Shown here: positions 13,813 through 26,441 of the stretch, one piece after another
Layout: each line of letters begins with the position of its first letter
Numbering within the stretch: the stretch's first letter is position 1
Source: Sphingomonadales bacterium
Lineage (GTDB): Bacteria > Bacteroidota > Bacteroidia > UBA7662
Assembly (NCBI GenBank): GCA_016872215.1
Contig: VHAX01000022.1
Location: forward strand, 1 to 37,100
Length of the DNA: 37,100 bases
Direction of reading: 5' to 3'
Notes under the pieces: model-generated
The model's database searches: none
The model's input: only the letters and a program-made list of their open reading frames with translations
What the model was told of the DNA's origin: nothing
Made by a program: the position numbers and the translations under genes

Positions 13813-13905
13813 ATCTCGTGTACACTGTTGTTGGTACAAATAAAAGAACGTATTAAAAATTTCTTGACTTTATGGTTGCAAAAAATGAGGTGTGCCAATA
13901 TATTA

Positions 13906-13928
13906 TGTATATATATGATATATATACA
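13906..13928. promoter_or_regulatory. Perfect AT-rich palindrome in divergent intergenic region
   Basis: TGTATATATA and TATATATACA flank the 3-base spacer TGA: a 10-bp perfect inverted repeat midway between the divergent DUF1801 and vWA genes. It could be an operator, a cruciform or simply a TA tract. The whole gap (13813-14070) is strongly AT-rich. Confidence 0.4.
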
Positions 13929-14006
13929 ATATATGGCAAGACCGTGTTAAATACAAAAATAACAACAAAAAGGTATTAAAAAATAAAAAAACAAGGTTTT
14001 TGGGAC

Positions 14007-14746: not shown

Positions 14747-16519
14747 TCACTTTCCGGAGTAGGGATGCACGCGCTTGCCCCGCGACCAAGTTCCGAGCAC
14801 TTTGGCTGTCCGAATCTCGGAATATCCAGCACTCATGAGGTCCGTATCAAGCCATACCAAGTCGGCATTCATACCCGGTAAAAGCCGCCCACGTTCATCC
14901 TCTTCGAATGCAGCACGCGCCGCCCAATCCGTCATCCCCCTGAGGGCTTGTCGCCTGGTAAGCGCTTGCTTGGGTAGAAACCCTCCCTTTGGAAATCCCG
15001 AAGAATCCGTACGGAAAACGGCGGAAAGGAAGGTTTTGAGGGGACTAATCTCTTCGACCGGGAAATCGGTGCCCAGGGGCAACCAGCCATTCAATAGCAG
15101 CAGATCGCGATAGGCATAGGCATGCGGCAAGCGTTGAGGTCCGAGGCGTTCGCTGGCCCAATACATATCGCTGGTGGCATGGGTGGGCTGAACCGAGGGC
15201 ACAATTCCTACGGCACGAAAAATTGCGCGGTCGTCGGGATGCACCACCTGGGCATGTTCTATGCGCCAACGGGCAGAGGCAGGTTTAGTACCTGTCGACT
15301 GCGCATGCGCCAACAGGCTGCGTCTGTAGAGCTGAAGGACCGCGCGGTTTGCCGCATCGCCAATGCAATGCGTGTTCATTTGGTAGCCCGCCCGAGCCAG
15401 AAGAGGTGCATAATAGGCGAGGGTATCGGGTGAGGTCACCCACAGTCCCACATGTCCTTCGCGATCGTTATATGGTTCCAAAAGTCGTGCACCTCGCGAA
15501 CCCAGGGCCCCATCTGCTAAAAACTTGAAGCTGCGGATGTGCAATTGCTGGCTTCTGTAGGGGGGGCGCGACAAATACCGCATAAGCTGGTCGGGGGTTG
15601 CGCTCACCATCGCATAGACACCCATGCTCAGTTTGCCCCCCTCTTCGAGCGCCCGCAGTGCTTCCAGTTGCTGCTCGTCGAGCCCAGCGTCCTGCACGCT
15701 GGTTAACCCCACGGCGTGACAGGCACGCTGCGCCGCCAGAATTGCTTTTTTCCAGGCAGAAATGCCCGGGTTCGGAATGCCGGTCTGGATCAAATCCGCT
15801 GCCTTGTCGATCAGCACCCCCGAGAGCGAACCATCGCGTCGCCGTACCGCTTCACCCCCGGCACCCCCGTCACTCCCGCTATCCCCGACTCCCCTGCCAT
15901 CCCTGTCAACTCCGGCACCCCTTGTGGAGGCCCTACCCGTAAAGTGCTTGCTGTTGTCTTCAAACTGGGTGGCGCGCAGAGCCGATTCATTCACCACTAC
16001 TGCGTGTCCGTCGACCCGCGACAGCAGTACGGGACGGCGCGGAAAAAGGCTGTCGAGCAACGCACGATCCGGGAATTCCTGTAAAGCCCAGTCGTTTTGG
16101 TCCCACCCCCGTCCGATCAGCCAACTCGTGTCGTTTGGGTTGCTGAGGTACGGCATAAGTCGTTTCACCACTTCTTCCCACGAACGGGTTCCGCGCAGAT
16201 CCACTTCGCCGAGGCTCTTGCCATAGCCCACAAAATGACAGTGGGCATCAATGAAACCGGGATATAGATAGCCGCCTTTCAGATCCACACTATCCTTAAA
16301 GTGATATCGGATCAGGAGCGTGCGCAGATCGCCCGCATCTACCACCCGTCCCTCCGTAACGGCCAGGGCCTGAGTCCGGGAGAATGCCGAATCCAGAAGG
16401 TAGACAGTTCCGTTGAAATAGAGGCAGTCGACTTCCATTTTATCGCGACAACCGCCCAGATACAGAGCGGCCACCAACAGGAACGCCCGAAGTATGCGTC
16501 TCATCCCTCTTCCACTCAT
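14747..16519 (-). CDS. YtcJ-like amidohydrolase family lipoprotein
   Basis: A 590-residue protein. A lipoprotein signal (LLVAALYLGGC, Cys24) is followed by an amidohydrolase_3/YtcJ-type domain: FNGTVYLLDSAF, YPGFIDAHCHFVGYG (HxH at 93-95), LIGRGWDQNDWA, FKFLADGALGSRGARLLEPY, RWRIEHAQVVHPDD and PLGTDFPVE. Members are metal-dependent hydrolases of amides or related bonds; the substrate is unknown, and the lipobox places it in an envelope membrane. Residues about 190-227 form a Gly/Asp/Arg-rich insert (GVDRDGRGVGDSGSDGGAGG) encoded by a degenerate 9-bp tandem repeat just before the conserved DGSLSGVL. The start overlaps the stop of the upstream GH13 gene (ATGA), so translation is probably coupled. 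Met6 is an alternative start with a tidier signal peptide. Confidence 0.85.
   Translation of the reverse strand: MSGRGMRRILRAFLLVAALYLGGCRDKMEVDCLYFNGTVYLLDSAFSRTQALAVTEGRVVDAGDLRTLLIRYHFKDSVDLKGGYLYPGFIDAHCHFVGYGKSLGEVDLRGTRSWEEVVKRLMPYLSNPNDTSWLIGRGWDQNDWALQEFPDRALLDSLFPRRPVLLSRVDGHAVVVNESALRATQFEDNSKHFTGRASTRGAGVDRDGRGVGDSGSDGGAGGEAVRRRDGSLSGVLIDKAADLIQTGIPNPGISAWKKAILAAQRACHAVGLTSVQDAGLDEQQLEALRALEEGGKLSMGVYAMVSATPDQLMRYLSRPPYRSQQLHIRSFKFLADGALGSRGARLLEPYNDREGHVGLWVTSPDTLAYYAPLLARAGYQMNTHCIGDAANRAVLQLYRRSLLAHAQSTGTKPASARWRIEHAQVVHPDDRAIFRAVGIVPSVQPTHATSDMYWASERLGPQRLPHAYAYRDLLLLNGWLPLGTDFPVEEISPLKTFLSAVFRTDSSGFPKGGFLPKQALTRRQALRGMTDWAARAAFEEDERGRLLPGMNADLVWLDTDLMSAGYSEIRTAKVLGTWSRGKRVHPYSGK
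15845..15935. repeat. In-frame degenerate 9-bp tandem repeat inside the amidohydrolase gene
   Basis: Consecutive 9-mers such as CCCCCGGCA, CCCCCGTCA, CTCCCGCTA, TCCCCGACT, CCCCTGCCA and TCCCTGTCA run in register. They encode a repeating three-residue Gly/Asp/Val/Ser pattern on the minus strand. The frame is kept. Confidence 0.7.
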
Positions 16520-18921
16520 TTGAAGGTGATTATTTCCGTGCTGTAGGGGGCCACAGTCGTTACCAGCGTCTTCTCGTCGGCCATCGCCAGCGGGTTACCC
16601 AGATGGCCCATAATTTCATCGCGGCGAAAATGTGAGGGCACGGGAATCTGAAATGTTTGCTCCTCGGAGCTTCGGTTGATGCACACGACTGCACCTTCCC
16701 CAAAATAATTGCGTACAAACGCGAGGCGATTGTCGTCCGTTTCAATGAGCTCTGTTTCCCCATAGGTAAGGGCCATGCTTTGCCCACGCATGCGGTAGAG
16801 GGTCGAAACATGTAAGCGGGTGCGCATTTCCTGATCGGAGAGGTCTGTGAAGCGCATGGGCCGGCGGTTGTCGGGGTCGCCCGCGCCGGGCATGCCAATG
16901 TCGTCGCCGTAGTAAACCACCGGAACTCCGGGAATGGTGGAAATAAACGACAGCAGCTGCTGCAGTCGCTTGTATCCCAGACTGTCCTTGATCTGTATGT
17001 CGCGCTCCCAGCCGGCGGCCCGCTCATCCTCATCGAAGTGCAAAGCGCCTGAGGCGTAGGCAATGAACCGGGCGAGGTCGTGGTTGCCCGAGATATTGCC
17101 CATTAGATTGTGGTGGCCGTAGTAGCGCATACTCTCATCGAGTGACGACCACAAGTGGCTGAGGGGCTGTTGATCGTTGGCCAGCAGGTTGCGGGCGTCG
17201 AAGTAGAGGTTGAAGTCGAATTGCGCATCGATCATACCGCTGCCGATGTACTGACCGATTAGTTCGCGGCTGCCGAAGGTTTCGCCGATCTGGTAGAGCG
17301 GGCGGCCGCGTGACTTCACCACACGGGTTTTGAGCTTATGCGAAAGCCGGCGCCAGAAATCTTCTGGAATGTGCTTGGTGGCATCGTGGCGGAAGCCATC
17401 GAAATCGTATTGGGTCATCCAAAAGAGAGCGCTGTCGCTCATGGCTTCGGCCACCTCGGGACGTTCCAGGTCGAGGCTGGGCATAAACGTATCGAACCAG
17501 GTGGTTAGGCGGTGTTCGTCCCAGATCCTAATGTTCTTGCGGCCATCCGGAAGTTCGAGCGTCGTTTTCCAATCGGGGTGCTGCTGCATGAGCGGGTGTT
17601 CCTGATGTACGTGGTTGGCCACATAGTCGAGCAGCACCCTGATGCCGTTGCCGTGGGCCACGTCAATCAGTTTTTTGAGTTCGGCCCCGGTGCCCATGCG
17701 GGGGTCGACCTGTGACGACGAAATGGGCCAGTAGCCGTGGTATCCCGAGTAGTACCGGCGGGGTTCGGGCCATTCCCGATAGGGCCCATCGGGGTTGCGC
17801 CCTATGGGTGAAATCCAGATGGAATTCACCCCCATATCGCGGAAGTAGCCACTTTCAATTCGGTTGATGATGCCTGAGATGTCTCCTCCCCAATAATTGG
17901 CCCTGGGATGCACACGGGGGTCGTTCACCGGACGGTCGTTGGTGGTGTCGCCGTTGTAGAAGCGGTCCACAAACACAAAATACATGCGCTGTTGGTGTAG
18001 GTCTAGTTGACCGAGACTATCGGTGTGCAGCACCGCTTTTCCTTTTTGTAGGGGGATGAGCAAGTCGTTCGATTCGCCCGATTCGTTGTGGGCATACACC
18101 CGCAGATGTGAGCGTTCTTGGCTGGCGGCCTCTTTGGGAAGGGTCAGCTGAACCTCACCCGAGTCGCCCTCCTGCCTGTATTCATCGGGGAGCAGGTGGT
18201 TTTCCCAAAACACAAGCAATTTACCCGGTGTGCGGTCGAGACCAATCACCAGCTTTGCCTCAGGACCATTCAGTTGGCGGATTGTGCGCAGCCGCGGAAG
18301 AAGGTTGGGGTCGGTGGCCTTAACCTCCAGCAGTGAATTGAGTCCACCCGCGCCATTGTCGCGCTGCAGGGGGTTGTCGGGGTCGAGCATCCAGTTTCCG
18401 TCGGACACAAACTGATAGGGATAAAACCCGGGATCGAGCCGCAGATCGATGCGAAAGCTACCCGCTACCGGGGTCATGGGACTTTTCGTAGGGTTCCACC
18501 CGTTCATATCCCCTGCGAGGCTCACCGAATTCGGCCGGTCCTTTTTGGGTGTGTAGCTTAGCACGACCGCTTGCTTCCGCGAACGGCGCAGCAGAAGGTC
18601 ATAGCGCGCTGATCCGCATTCCAGTGCCAGCGTCGATAGGGTTTGGGTGATGCTATCAGGGTGGTAGAGCCACATTTGGCTGCTATCGCCCACCAATCGA
18701 GCGTTGAAACCCGTCGGAAGCGTCCAGCCTGTGAGGCTACTTGGCTCGTCAAGGTAATCGGACAGGAACAAGAGGGTGCTGTCGGCGCTCAGTTGAACGG
18801 GCGATGCCAGGCCGGTGATGTGGTCACCCGTTGGAATGGGGGTCATTCCCTTTTTGCAACCCGAAAGAAAGGGGGTGGTGAAGAGCAACACGAGCAGTAA
18901 TCGCGAAAAAATCCCGTTCAT
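16516..18921 (-). CDS. GH13 alpha-amylase-family lipoprotein with CBM48-like domain
   Basis: An 801-residue protein from MNGIFSRLLLVLLF; the longer reading from 18990 would bury the signal peptide. The lipobox is FLSGC, Cys22. A CBM48/AMPK-like module spans about 124-200 (SVSLAGDMNGWNP … YPYQFVSDGNWMLDPDNP). The GH13 barrel begins near 313 (MYFVFVDRFYNGD). It has region I LLDYVANHV, region II DGFRHDATKH (nucleophile D513), region III YQIGETFG (acid/base E547), region IV SGNHDLARF (D615), and a C-terminal beta domain. All three catalytic acids are present. It resembles the SusG/neopullulanase-type surface or periplasmic amylases of Bacteroidota that cleave starch-like alpha-glucans. No SusC/SusD pair is nearby. 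It is the first gene of a two-gene operon. Confidence 0.9.
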   Translation of the reverse strand: MNGIFSRLLLVLLFTTPFLSGCKKGMTPIPTGDHITGLASPVQLSADSTLLFLSDYLDEPSSLTGWTLPTGFNARLVGDSSQMWLYHPDSITQTLSTLALECGSARYDLLLRRSRKQAVVLSYTPKKDRPNSVSLAGDMNGWNPTKSPMTPVAGSFRIDLRLDPGFYPYQFVSDGNWMLDPDNPLQRDNGAGGLNSLLEVKATDPNLLPRLRTIRQLNGPEAKLVIGLDRTPGKLLVFWENHLLPDEYRQEGDSGEVQLTLPKEAASQERSHLRVYAHNESGESNDLLIPLQKGKAVLHTDSLGQLDLHQQRMYFVFVDRFYNGDTTNDRPVNDPRVHPRANYWGGDISGIINRIESGYFRDMGVNSIWISPIGRNPDGPYREWPEPRRYYSGYHGYWPISSSQVDPRMGTGAELKKLIDVAHGNGIRVLLDYVANHVHQEHPLMQQHPDWKTTLELPDGRKNIRIWDEHRLTTWFDTFMPSLDLERPEVAEAMSDSALFWMTQYDFDGFRHDATKHIPEDFWRRLSHKLKTRVVKSRGRPLYQIGETFGSRELIGQYIGSGMIDAQFDFNLYFDARNLLANDQQPLSHLWSSLDESMRYYGHHNLMGNISGNHDLARFIAYASGALHFDEDERAAGWERDIQIKDSLGYKRLQQLLSFISTIPGVPVVYYGDDIGMPGAGDPDNRRPMRFTDLSDQEMRTRLHVSTLYRMRGQSMALTYGETELIETDDNRLAFVRNYFGEGAVVCINRSSEEQTFQIPVPSHFRRDEIMGHLGNPLAMADEKTLVTTVAPYSTEIITFK

Positions 18922-19065
18922 TCCAGCGGATAAAGCGGTAAGAGTCTCCGTATAAAGGGCATTTTTGAGCAGAAAAAGTGCTGTTTTCATAAGTTTTGGG
19001 TAGTAGAAATGGGGTAATCCAGTTGGCCTGTGAAAATACCAAATCTAATCGGGTATTTTTGCGTG

Positions 19066-19490
19066 ATGCGAATTCTACGCCATTTGGTGGCCGTTGTGGT
19101 TGCTTTGCTGTCGGGTATGCTGGTGAATGGTGGACTAGTGTCATTGGGTCATCGGCTTATTCCGCTGCCCGGTGGTTTGTCAGGCGATACGCCTAAAGCG
19201 CTCTCCGCGGCCATTTCTTTGATGGGCGCCGAGCACTTTTTATTTCCCTGGCTGGCCCATGCCGGGGGCAACTTTGTATCGGCCCTCCTCGTAACGCTCA
19301 TCTCCCAAAACCGTAGTTTTTGGCTCCCAACCCTATTTGGAGTGCTGTTTTTAGCGGGCGGTACCTATATATGGCGGTTGTTCTGCCCGCAGCGCTGTGG
19401 TTCGAGGCGCTGGATCTCGGGGCGGCCTATTTTCCCATGGTCTGGCTTGGTTATCGCCTTGCCCTTCGGTGGATGCCCATCACCTCATAA
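19066..19490 (+). pseudogene. Four-helix membrane protein gene broken by a 2-bp frameshift in a TA tract
   Basis: From the ATG at 19066 the frame reads as a small integral membrane protein: MRILRHLVAVVVALLSG, then HFLFPWLAHAGGNFVSALL, then LPTLFGVLFLAGGTY. It then degenerates to a Cys/Arg-rich tail ending at 19518. Removing one TA from TATATA at about 19366-19371 restores YMAVVLPAALWFEALDLG and then AAYFPMVWLGYRLALRW, stopping at 19490. That restored tail matches the 'P.PLWF..vD…YiPMa.LG..L' ending I recall for a ~140-residue Bacteroidota membrane-protein family with a HF.…LAHA.G helix. The restored stop lies 2 bp before the next gene. It could be a true mutation, a phase-variable tract or a sequencing error. 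Function is unknown. Confidence 0.7.
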
Positions 19491-19492
19491 TT

Positions 19493-20029
19493 ATGCCCCT
19501 CGAATCCTATTTTTCTGAAGAAACGCTGCGGTGGGTTGTCATTCCCCTGTTGATTTTCCTGGCCAGGTTAACGGACGTTACCATCGGCACGCTCCGCCTC
19601 ATTTTTACGGCCCGTGGATTCCGACAAATTGCCCCTGTTTTGGGGTTTTTTGAGGTACTGATCTGGATTGTGGCCATGTCGCAGATTATGCGGTATGCCG
19701 ACAATTGGCCGAGCTACCTCGCCTGGGCCGGGGGCTTTGCAGCGGGTAATTATACCGGCCTCAAGATTGAAGAGCGGCTTGCATTGGGCAACCTCTTGCT
19801 TCGGGTCATCACCGCCCTGCCTGCCGTTGATTTGATGGAGGCCCTTCGTTCCCGCGGCTATGGGGTGACACTCCTAGGCGCACGTGGTAGTCAGGGCGAC
19901 GTGAGCGTTTTGTTCACCCTCATCAAAAGAAAAAATCTGCCCGATGCCCTGGCTCTCGTTCATGCGCATAATCCCCAGGCCTTTTACACGGTGGAAGACG
20001 TACGTCACACCTCGGTTCGCTCTCGCTGA
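19493..20029 (+). CDS. UPF0316 family (DUF2179/DUF5698) membrane protein
   Basis: A 178-residue protein from the ATG at 19493, 2 bp past the restored stop of the preceding gene; frame extensions further upstream overlap that gene and are not real. Three N-terminal helices include LLIFLARLTDVTIGTLRLIF and LGFFEVLIWIVAMSQIM. A soluble DUF2179-like domain follows (LRSRGYGVTLLGARGSQGDVSVLFTLIKRKNLPDALALV). This is the UPF0316 architecture: inner-membrane, C-terminal domain in the cytosol, function unknown. DUF2179 domains occur in proteins thought to sense small ligands. It is probably co-transcribed with the broken membrane gene. Confidence 0.9.
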   Translation: MPLESYFSEETLRWVVIPLLIFLARLTDVTIGTLRLIFTARGFRQIAPVLGFFEVLIWIVAMSQIMRYADNWPSYLAWAGGFAAGNYTGLKIEERLALGNLLLRVITALPAVDLMEALRSRGYGVTLLGARGSQGDVSVLFTLIKRKNLPDALALVHAHNPQAFYTVEDVRHTSVRSR

Positions 20030-24029: not shown

Positions 24030-25039
24030 CACGAAGCACCCTGTTTTTTGCGGGCTGCGGCAAGAATCAAAAACGAAATAAAGCCGCCCACCACAAACAG
24101 AAGCGTCTGCGCCGCATGGGTAAGGGTGGCATAACTCAGCGCCTCGGAAGGCGAAATGCCGGTGGCGGGCAGCAAAAGCAGTGCCTTGCTCACCGCGGCG
24201 TGGTAGGCTCCAATTCCACCCTGCACGGGCATCAAAAAGCCCAGGCTGCCGGCCACGAGCACCAGAAATGCCTCGGATACACCCAGCGCCTGGGTGCTTT
24301 CGAAGGCAAACAAACAGAAATAGGACATGAAGAAATAGCCCAACCAGATGCCCAATGTGGCAAGCCAAAAACGTTCGGGATGCGATAAGTTTCGGATAGT
24401 CCGGAGGCCTAGCCACAAACCGCGCAGTAAACCCAAGAATTTTTGTCCCTTCTTCCAGCTCCTCATCCGTTCCAGTAACCGATGCCGGTTTCGCCAAAAC
24501 ATGTAAGCCATCAATCCGCCCACGGTTCCGGTTATAACCAAAACCCACAGTGTGGAATCTCTACCCAGACGCAGGAGCAAACGTTGAGCAGGCCCCATAA
24601 GGAGCGAGTTATACAGCACCAGGGTGGCCAGAGTTACCACCAGCAAGACGAGCACATCGACAGCGCGTTCCACGATAACTGTGCCAATCAGGCTATTCAT
24701 GGGCAAGCCGGTTTTGCGTGACAGGGCACCACAACGGACCACTTCACCTACCCGCGGAATGGCCAGATTGGCGAGGTAGCCCACCATAACCGAATGATAG
24801 GAGTCGACCGTGGTCGGTTTGGGCCCCACCGCGCCGGTCAGGAGCGTCCACCGATAGCCCCTGAGGGCATGTGCCAAAAGCCCTGCCAGGCTCGACAAAC
24901 CAATCCACCCAAAGCGGGCTTTTTTTGAGGTATGCATCACCTCCTCCCAATTCTGGTCTTGGAACACCCAATACAGAATCACCGACCCCAGCAGCAGTGA
25001 TACGGCGAATTGCAGCAATTGGCGGGCCGTTACCAACAT
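24029..25039 (-). CDS. UPF0104/lysylphosphatidylglycerol-synthase-type integral membrane protein
   Basis: A 336-residue inner-membrane protein with about eight hydrophobic helices. It carries the family blocks QNWEEVMHTSKKARFGWIGL (TM2 entry), LAHALRGYRW, GYLANLAIPRVGEVVRCGAL (66-90 region), ERAVDVLVLL and a C-terminal MPVQGGIGAYHAAVSKALLL. This is the flippase-like TM domain shared with MprF and YbhN. Stand-alone members without the synthetase domain are proposed lipid flippases or envelope-synthesis partners; the lipid here is unknown. It lies between panD (4-bp gap) and rfaE2 (1-bp overlap), within one operon. Confidence 0.87.
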   Translation of the reverse strand: MLVTARQLLQFAVSLLLGSVILYWVFQDQNWEEVMHTSKKARFGWIGLSSLAGLLAHALRGYRWTLLTGAVGPKPTTVDSYHSVMVGYLANLAIPRVGEVVRCGALSRKTGLPMNSLIGTVIVERAVDVLVLLVVTLATLVLYNSLLMGPAQRLLLRLGRDSTLWVLVITGTVGGLMAYMFWRNRHRLLERMRSWKKGQKFLGLLRGLWLGLRTIRNLSHPERFWLATLGIWLGYFFMSYFCLFAFESTQALGVSEAFLVLVAGSLGFLMPVQGGIGAYHAAVSKALLLLPATGISPSEALSYATLTHAAQTLLFVVGGFISFLILAAARKKQGAS

Positions 25040-25043
25040 ACAC

Positions 25044-25394
25044 TTAGAGGGGCAGCCGATTATCGGAATCCGGGAAGATTAAGGCCGGGACATGGGATTG
25101 CGCTTCCTCGGTCGACATCCATGCGAAGGCGACCACGATCAGCAAATCGCCCACAGCCACCTTACGGGCGGCGGGGCCGTTCAAGCAAATCACACCACTG
25201 GCCCGGGCACCTTTGATGACATAGGTCTCCAGGCGTTCGCCGTTGTTGATGTTCACCACCTGCACCTTTTCATTCTCCATCAAACAGGCGGCATCCATCA
25301 GATCTTCATCGATGGTGATGCTGCCCACATAGTGTAATTCGGCTTGGGTGACCCGCACCCGGTGGATTTTGGATTTAACGAGGTTTACGAGCAT
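25044..25394 (-). CDS. panD: Aspartate 1-decarboxylase proenzyme
   Basis: A pyruvoyl enzyme that converts aspartate to beta-alanine for pantothenate synthesis. The 116-residue protein has the self-cleavage site at Gly24-Ser25 in [14 protein letters not shown]. Further family blocks are [18 protein letters not shown] (44-61) and [22 protein letters not shown] (67-88). Length and motif spacing are normal. It follows panC by 21 bp, so the two substrates' branches (beta-alanine supply and pantoate ligation) are co-expressed. Confidence 0.95.
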
Positions 25395-25415
25395 AATCAG
25401 GAATTCGGCGCAAAA

Positions 25416-26441
25416 TTAGGGAAAGACAACCGTATTGTCTATCAGGCGAACCCCTTCGATCCATACCGCAGCAAAAATACGCACCGACGTGTGGTTTTTC
25501 CAGTCGACCACCTCGGCGAGGGTGTCTGAATCGGCTAGCTGAATGTATTCGACACGGAAGTCGGGCTCCTCTGCGAGCCCGGACCGGATCTTTTGAACCA
25601 GTTGCGCGGGCGTTTCCCGGCACCAGCCAACGCGCGCTTGCCGGAGAGCGGCGTAGATCCGTCGTGCTTTTAGGCGACCTTTGGGCGACAACCGCTGGTT
25701 GCGCGAGCTCAGTGCAAGTCCACCTTTATCGCGGTGGGTCGGCCCCATGATGAGGCTTGGAATCCGATGTGCGGATCGGGTGACGGCACCGGCATTGGAG
25801 CCACCATTATTTGGATCAACTTTATTTTTTCCTTTCTGATCCAGACCTCCCATCCGAGTAGCCCGCTCTTTGGGAACTTCCATGCTTGGCCCTCCCGTGT
25901 TTGGTCTGTTTTCGAGTGAAGGGGGTTCTTTCCTCTCCCGCAGCTGGCGGAGCAGGTCGCGAACCACCATGAATTGCTGGTAGTCCTTTTCCCCCAACAG
26001 TAGGTAGTCGGCCTCCACGAGCTGCAGGAGGCGGGCCACTACTTGTCCGACTCCTGCGAAATGGCCGGGACGCATTGCTCCCTCCATCACTTGTTCGAGT
26101 GCACCGAAGGAGAAGGTCGCCGCAGGTTGTTCGGGGGGATACACCTCCTCCAATTCGGGTTGAAAGAGGGCATCAGTCCGCCCCTGTTCCACTAGTAAGC
26201 GCAGATCACGCACTGAGTCACGGGGGTAGGTCCGCAGATCAGCGGGGTCATTGAATTGGGTGGGGTTCACAAATATGCTGCACACCACGCGGGTGTTTGG
26301 ATAATGGGAGGCTCGTTCCAATAGGCCCATATGTCCCTCATGGAGTGCTCCCATGGTAGGCACAAAGGCGATTTTCATACCCTTTTTGCGCCATAGTTCG
26401 ATGGCCCTGTGGAGTCCGGAAACGTGGCGGAAAATCAGCAT
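25416..26441 (-). CDS. panC: Pantothenate synthetase with a ~55-residue low-complexity insertion
   Basis: This enzyme joins pantoate and beta-alanine using ATP to make pantothenate. The 341-residue protein starts at MLIFRHVSGLH; an ATG 27 bp upstream is less likely. Motifs are VPTMGALHEGHMGLL (27-41, HxGH class I synthetase), FVNPTQFNDPADL, RPGHFAGVGQVVARLL, YLLLGEKDYQQFMVVRDL (146-163), GGLALSSRNQRL (240-251) and the C-terminal RVEYIQLADSDTL. PanC is usually about 280 residues. The excess lies at about 169-225, a Pro/Gly/Asn/Lys-rich stretch (RERKEPPSLENRPNTGG …) between the LRQL helix and RIPSLIMGPTHRDKGG, where the family has a short link. Catalytic motifs are intact, so the enzyme is probably active. 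First gene of the minus-strand operon. Confidence 0.93.
   Translation of the reverse strand: MLIFRHVSGLHRAIELWRKKGMKIAFVPTMGALHEGHMGLLERASHYPNTRVVCSIFVNPTQFNDPADLRTYPRDSVRDLRLLVEQGRTDALFQPELEEVYPPEQPAATFSFGALEQVMEGAMRPGHFAGVGQVVARLLQLVEADYLLLGEKDYQQFMVVRDLLRQLRERKEPPSLENRPNTGGPSMEVPKERATRMGGLDQKGKNKVDPNNGGSNAGAVTRSAHRIPSLIMGPTHRDKGGLALSSRNQRLSPKGRLKARRIYAALRQARVGWCRETPAQLVQKIRSGLAEEPDFRVEYIQLADSDTLAEVVDWKNHTSVRIFAAVWIEGVRLIDNTVVFP

Follow-up and report, generated by a model that had tools for sequence, protein, structure and literature searches.

A frame break at a short TA tract in a small membrane-protein gene next to UPF0316, probably a recent null allele

One known system with a TA tract is found in Haemophilus influenzae, where, according to an extract of a survey of that species, the number of units in a (TA)9-11 tract sets the output of hifA and hifB (PMC2651432). 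The same extract gives five dinucleotide units as the threshold for such tracts, while extracts of two further surveys give six dinucleotide units in Campylobacter (PMC6321876) and eight units in Neisseria, where the authors also found dinucleotide tracts to be without change (PMC5953494). The recent frameshift pseudogene is the other kind of locus with which a coding-region tract can be compared.

The DNA analysed here, called the window, is a stretch of 37,100 nucleotides that makes up the whole of contig 22 in a genome of 2.09 Mb and 53 contigs. The frame opened by the ATG at 19066 changes at the sequence TATATAT, 19366-19372 (Table 1). Read from that start, the frame stays open to 19518 and encodes a product of 150 amino acids with a foreign tail of 49 residues. 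A family-like ending, LWFEALDLGAAYFPMVWLG, is found in another frame and closes with TAA at 19488-19490, which leaves two bases before the ATG of the UPF0316 gene at 19493. A profile built from 16 intact proteins (A3) gives two matches on the contig (G000:C22), one at 19069-19377 (profile positions 2-105, E 3.1e-31) and one at 19365-19475 (profile positions 101-137, E 2.1e-9). The two matches are adjacent, lie in different frames and together cover positions 2 to 137 of the family profile. The match to the membrane-protein family is thus full-length and split over two frames, and the single open frame with the conserved last helices is absent, which makes the window copy a broken member of the family.

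Table 1. Positions of the features at the frame break and in its surroundings
Feature	Position	Strand	Basis
Upstream leader	19026..19063	+	38/38 identical in G001 (blastn); there runs straight into UPF0316
First 100 codons, intact; protein with four transmembrane helices from a widespread, uncharacterised family	19066..19365	+	69-70% identity to congeners over 101 aa; profile positions 2-105
TATATAT tract, 3.5 TA units, site of the frame break; two bases longer than in G002 and G003	19366..19372	+	alignment; tract list
Foreign tail read from the 19066 start	19366..19518	+	stop TGA 19516-19518, 26 bases inside UPF0316
Last part of the original gene, no longer in the frame of the 19066 start; 7/8 post-break invariant residues and old stop TAA (19488-19490)	19373..19490	+	sequence, profile, codon-position bias
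UPF0316 gene, intact, next in the same orientation	19493..20029	+	Pfam DUF5698 and DUF2179; NCBIfam NF003191, 219 bits against a cut-off of 179

The gene was searched for in 60 related genomes and found in 17, the window's included. It is unbroken, in one frame and with a common ending, in all 16 other genomes. Two of these belong to the same genus and carry it intact in the corresponding position (G002, 70% identity; G003, 69%). In a DNA alignment with these two, lengths within the gene differ only by the two bases 19366-19367, which both congeners lack. A wider profile (A4) matches in 64 of 198 sampled Bacteroidia genomes, and only the window copy is split into adjacent pieces; among the 63 other positive genomes 61 match near full length in one piece, and the remaining two have weak partial matches (E 6e-4 and 7e-4). 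One-piece matches were also found in 80/80 kept loci of genome_contigs, which are the best 80 of at least 584 relatives, a selection biased towards intact copies, and which include G003 again as L037. With none of the 63 other family-bearing genomes in the sample of 198 split in this way, the split of the window copy is far beyond chance. An earlier note, made from the window alone, had proposed a frameshift at the TA tract of a conserved membrane-protein gene, with a family-like ending in another frame, an old stop two bases before the UPF0316 ATG and an intact family form with one TA fewer, and on all these points the sequence, the profile matches and the intact relatives agree with it.

The family consists of four-helix membrane proteins with the consensus ...PFLAHALGTLVGA...MLPAPxWFxxxDLxxAYxPMAWLG..., and the 16 other members from the related genomes have in one frame what the window copy has split between two. 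Judged by record titles, the at least 584 matches in genome_contigs come from Bacteroidota, Pseudomonadota, Verrucomicrobiota (Opitutae), Acidobacteriota and others. The first 101 residues used as a single-protein query rendered no relative in viral_contigs or genome_contigs, unlike profile A3, which did find the relatives in genome_contigs. No Pfam or NCBIfam model scored above its cut-off for the membrane family. Solved structures gave only one chance match (E = 1) and the fold search had no match at E <= 0.001, and therefore no function can be named. For annotators, a widespread family that no Pfam or NCBIfam model reports at its cut-off may be of more use than the broken copy itself. The neighbouring UPF0316 protein is 93-95% identical to the copies of the congeners.

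The sequence of the 16 relatives has 17 invariant columns, eight of which lie after the break (P107, P109, W111, F112, D116, A120, Y121 and P123). Seven of these eight are still encoded in the window's old frame, with A in place of P109, whereas all eight are missing in the frame read from 19066. In an AlphaFold2 model of an intact congener protein, with a mean pLDDT of 96.0 and a pTM of 0.88, helices lie at 2-31, 43-52, 55-80, 86-105, 110-119 and 122-135, four of which are probably membrane-spanning, judging by their length and sequence. On this model the break falls inside helix 86-105, and helices 110-119 and 122-135 are lost. The shifted product is most likely non-functional because the last amphipathic helix, the fourth transmembrane helix and the eight invariant residues are gone. 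It is improbable that the shifted protein of 150 amino acids still functions, or has taken up a new role, with its foreign tail. The frame does stay open as far as 19518 and most of the first three model helices is retained, but every invariant residue after the break is missing from the product. Homologues with an ending like the foreign tail, which in the earlier note would have counted against its reading, were not seen among the 16 relatives, the 80 kept loci and the 198 sampled genomes.

The old frame carries the mark of selection on both sides of the break. Counted by codon position, the window differs from G002 at 22/13/43 sites (100 each) before the break and at 7/3/13 (40 each) after it, read in the old frame; the corresponding numbers for G003 are 21/17/48 (100 each) and 7/4/18 (40 each). 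The dN/dS is similar on the two sides, at 0.24 (G002) and 0.21 (G003) before the break and 0.26 and 0.13 after it. The pair G002-G003 has 0.20 and 0.19, so the window pairs (0.13-0.26) show no excess. No second lesion was seen in the gene and the old frame is otherwise undecayed. The pattern suggests purifying selection on the old frame almost to the present, and from the codon positions and dN/dS it follows that the break would be recent, or not real.

The reading that we consider probable is a recent null allele, made by a two-base insertion in a dispensable gene for a small membrane protein. One TA unit would have been gained, most simply by strand slippage in the short tract, and the frame would have shifted about 100 codons into a gene of 140 codons. 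The resulting product with its foreign tail is probably degraded or inactive. Ribosomes would end translation 26 bases into UPF0316, where the old stop lay 2 bases ahead of that gene, and the coupling between the two genes might change slightly. Against a null allele, the lack of further decay is equally compatible with an assembly error, the old frame keeps seven of the eight invariant residues, and the unbroken upstream ORF could in principle still yield a protein that works in part despite its foreign tail.

That the real gene is intact, and the two extra bases an artefact of sequencing or of strain merging, is a less likely alternative. It agrees with the purifying selection on the old frame up to the present sequence and with the lack of a second lesion. 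However, the gene is the only split one among the 17 window genes with an orthologue in the fetched congener contigs. This survey comprised 26 window genes, nine of them without such an orthologue, chosen from 33 ORFs after eight overlapping, antisense or over-extended frames had been removed and UPF0316 had been put back with its own ATG as the start. In addition, completeness of the genome is 99.29% and contamination 0.01%, and a further congener (G001) has lost the gene. The earlier note had named a plain mutation or a read error as equally possible; this was the right pair of alternatives, and a real mutation is favoured here.

Three other frames in the window were considered as frameshift candidates and rejected. 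The frame at 16379-17088 (+) is antisense to two long intact genes, and those at 25041-25522 (+) and, matching it, 24794-25370 (+) are antisense to 25040-25415 and its neighbours. The open minus-strand frame at 25040-25415 is presumably panD. A minus-strand ORF at 18824-19144 was also rejected, as a shadow ORF that overlaps the leader.

The membrane-protein gene is patchily distributed in the taxonomic family of the window. According to the profile search it is present in 3 of 17 genomes, all three in the window's genus, and in the four genomes of the family's other genera that have UPF0316, UPF0316 stands without it. A fourth genome in the genus, G001, lacks the gene, with the two flanks joined to each other. 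A tree of two neighbouring genes places G001 as sister to G003 with support 100, and the two are 92-94% identical in these genes and 94.9% in UPF0316. Trees of UPF0316 with outgroups resolved the genus weakly (support 35-64), and their root was not relied on. The simplest history would be that the gene was lost in G001, because its sister G003 and both of the more distant congeners have it. Lesions in two of the four species agree with a gene that is being shed, and with a genus that can do without it.

At L021:1441-1520 (G001:C36) the common upstream leader joins the start of UPF0316 directly, a clean loss compared with the sister G003. In the window the leader holds TATTTTTG at 19054-19061, four bases before the ATG at 19066, and the transcript might be nearly leaderless. 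We take TATTTTTG to resemble the -7 promoter box of Bacteroidota. In G001 this leader serves UPF0316. A scan for promoters and terminators gave nothing decisive.

The earlier note had seen in the dinucleotide tract a classic place for reversible on/off switching, and this is not supported. Slipped-strand mispairing at the TA tract would turn the membrane protein on and off, since one TA unit more or less decides whether a full or a broken product is read, and the other frame still carries the family ending. At 3.5 units, however, the tract is shorter than any of the thresholds (5, 6 and 8 dinucleotide units) given in extracts of the published surveys (PMC2651432, PMC6321876, PMC5953494). Nor is the tract kept in relatives: the congeners have TATAT (2.5 units), and of the three order-level relatives shown in the alignment two (L011 and L017) carry TTACATGG and one (L015) carries TTATATGG. 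Twelve further TA/AT tracts with 3 or more units occur in the window, seven of them in open genes. Patchy occurrence and deletion in a congener, furthermore, set the gene apart from a contingency gene that is kept for switching. Nothing marks the tract out as a contingency locus. A switch is accordingly very improbable, and the same very low probability is given to its fuller version, in which a low-rate reversible switch of the membrane protein would also alter the translation of UPF0316 through the changed overlap. If the switch were real, an unusually short repeat would drive phase variation in a member of the Bacteroidota with a small genome.

As a sequence the tract is nothing out of the ordinary here: TATATA occurs nine times in the window against 3.98 expected, and four of the nine lie in one intergenic patch. 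This patch, at 13898-13934, contains several TA/AT tracts of 3 to 4.5 units, the longest in the window. The sequence TATATATATA has only two sites in the whole genome, G000:C13:26463-26472 and G000:C19:23657-23666. In viral_contigs, a DNA pattern made of the sequence on either side of the tract, with the gap between them left free, gave 0 matches, although such collections may lack records of the species, and no allele of the species with a different number of units came to light.

Programmed recoding, in which slippage of ribosomes or RNA polymerase on TATATAT would let a full protein be made from the shifted DNA, is hardly credible. A tyrosine codon could conceivably re-pair two bases further on within TATATAT, but a two-base forward slip is rare and such a shift is needed in none of the 16 relatives.

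As found, the locus matters little, being one broken copy in a patchy family, and its value lies in correcting the switch hypothesis. The likeness to hifA/hifB is a TA tract; in the extract of the Haemophilus influenzae survey that tract has 9-11 units and lies in a promoter (PMC2651432), whereas the tract in the window has 3.5 units, lies in a coding region, is not conserved and has no alleles seen. From ordinary recent frameshift pseudogenes the window gene differs in nothing evident, and it shares with them a single small indel, intact neighbours, intact relatives and a sequence free of other decay.
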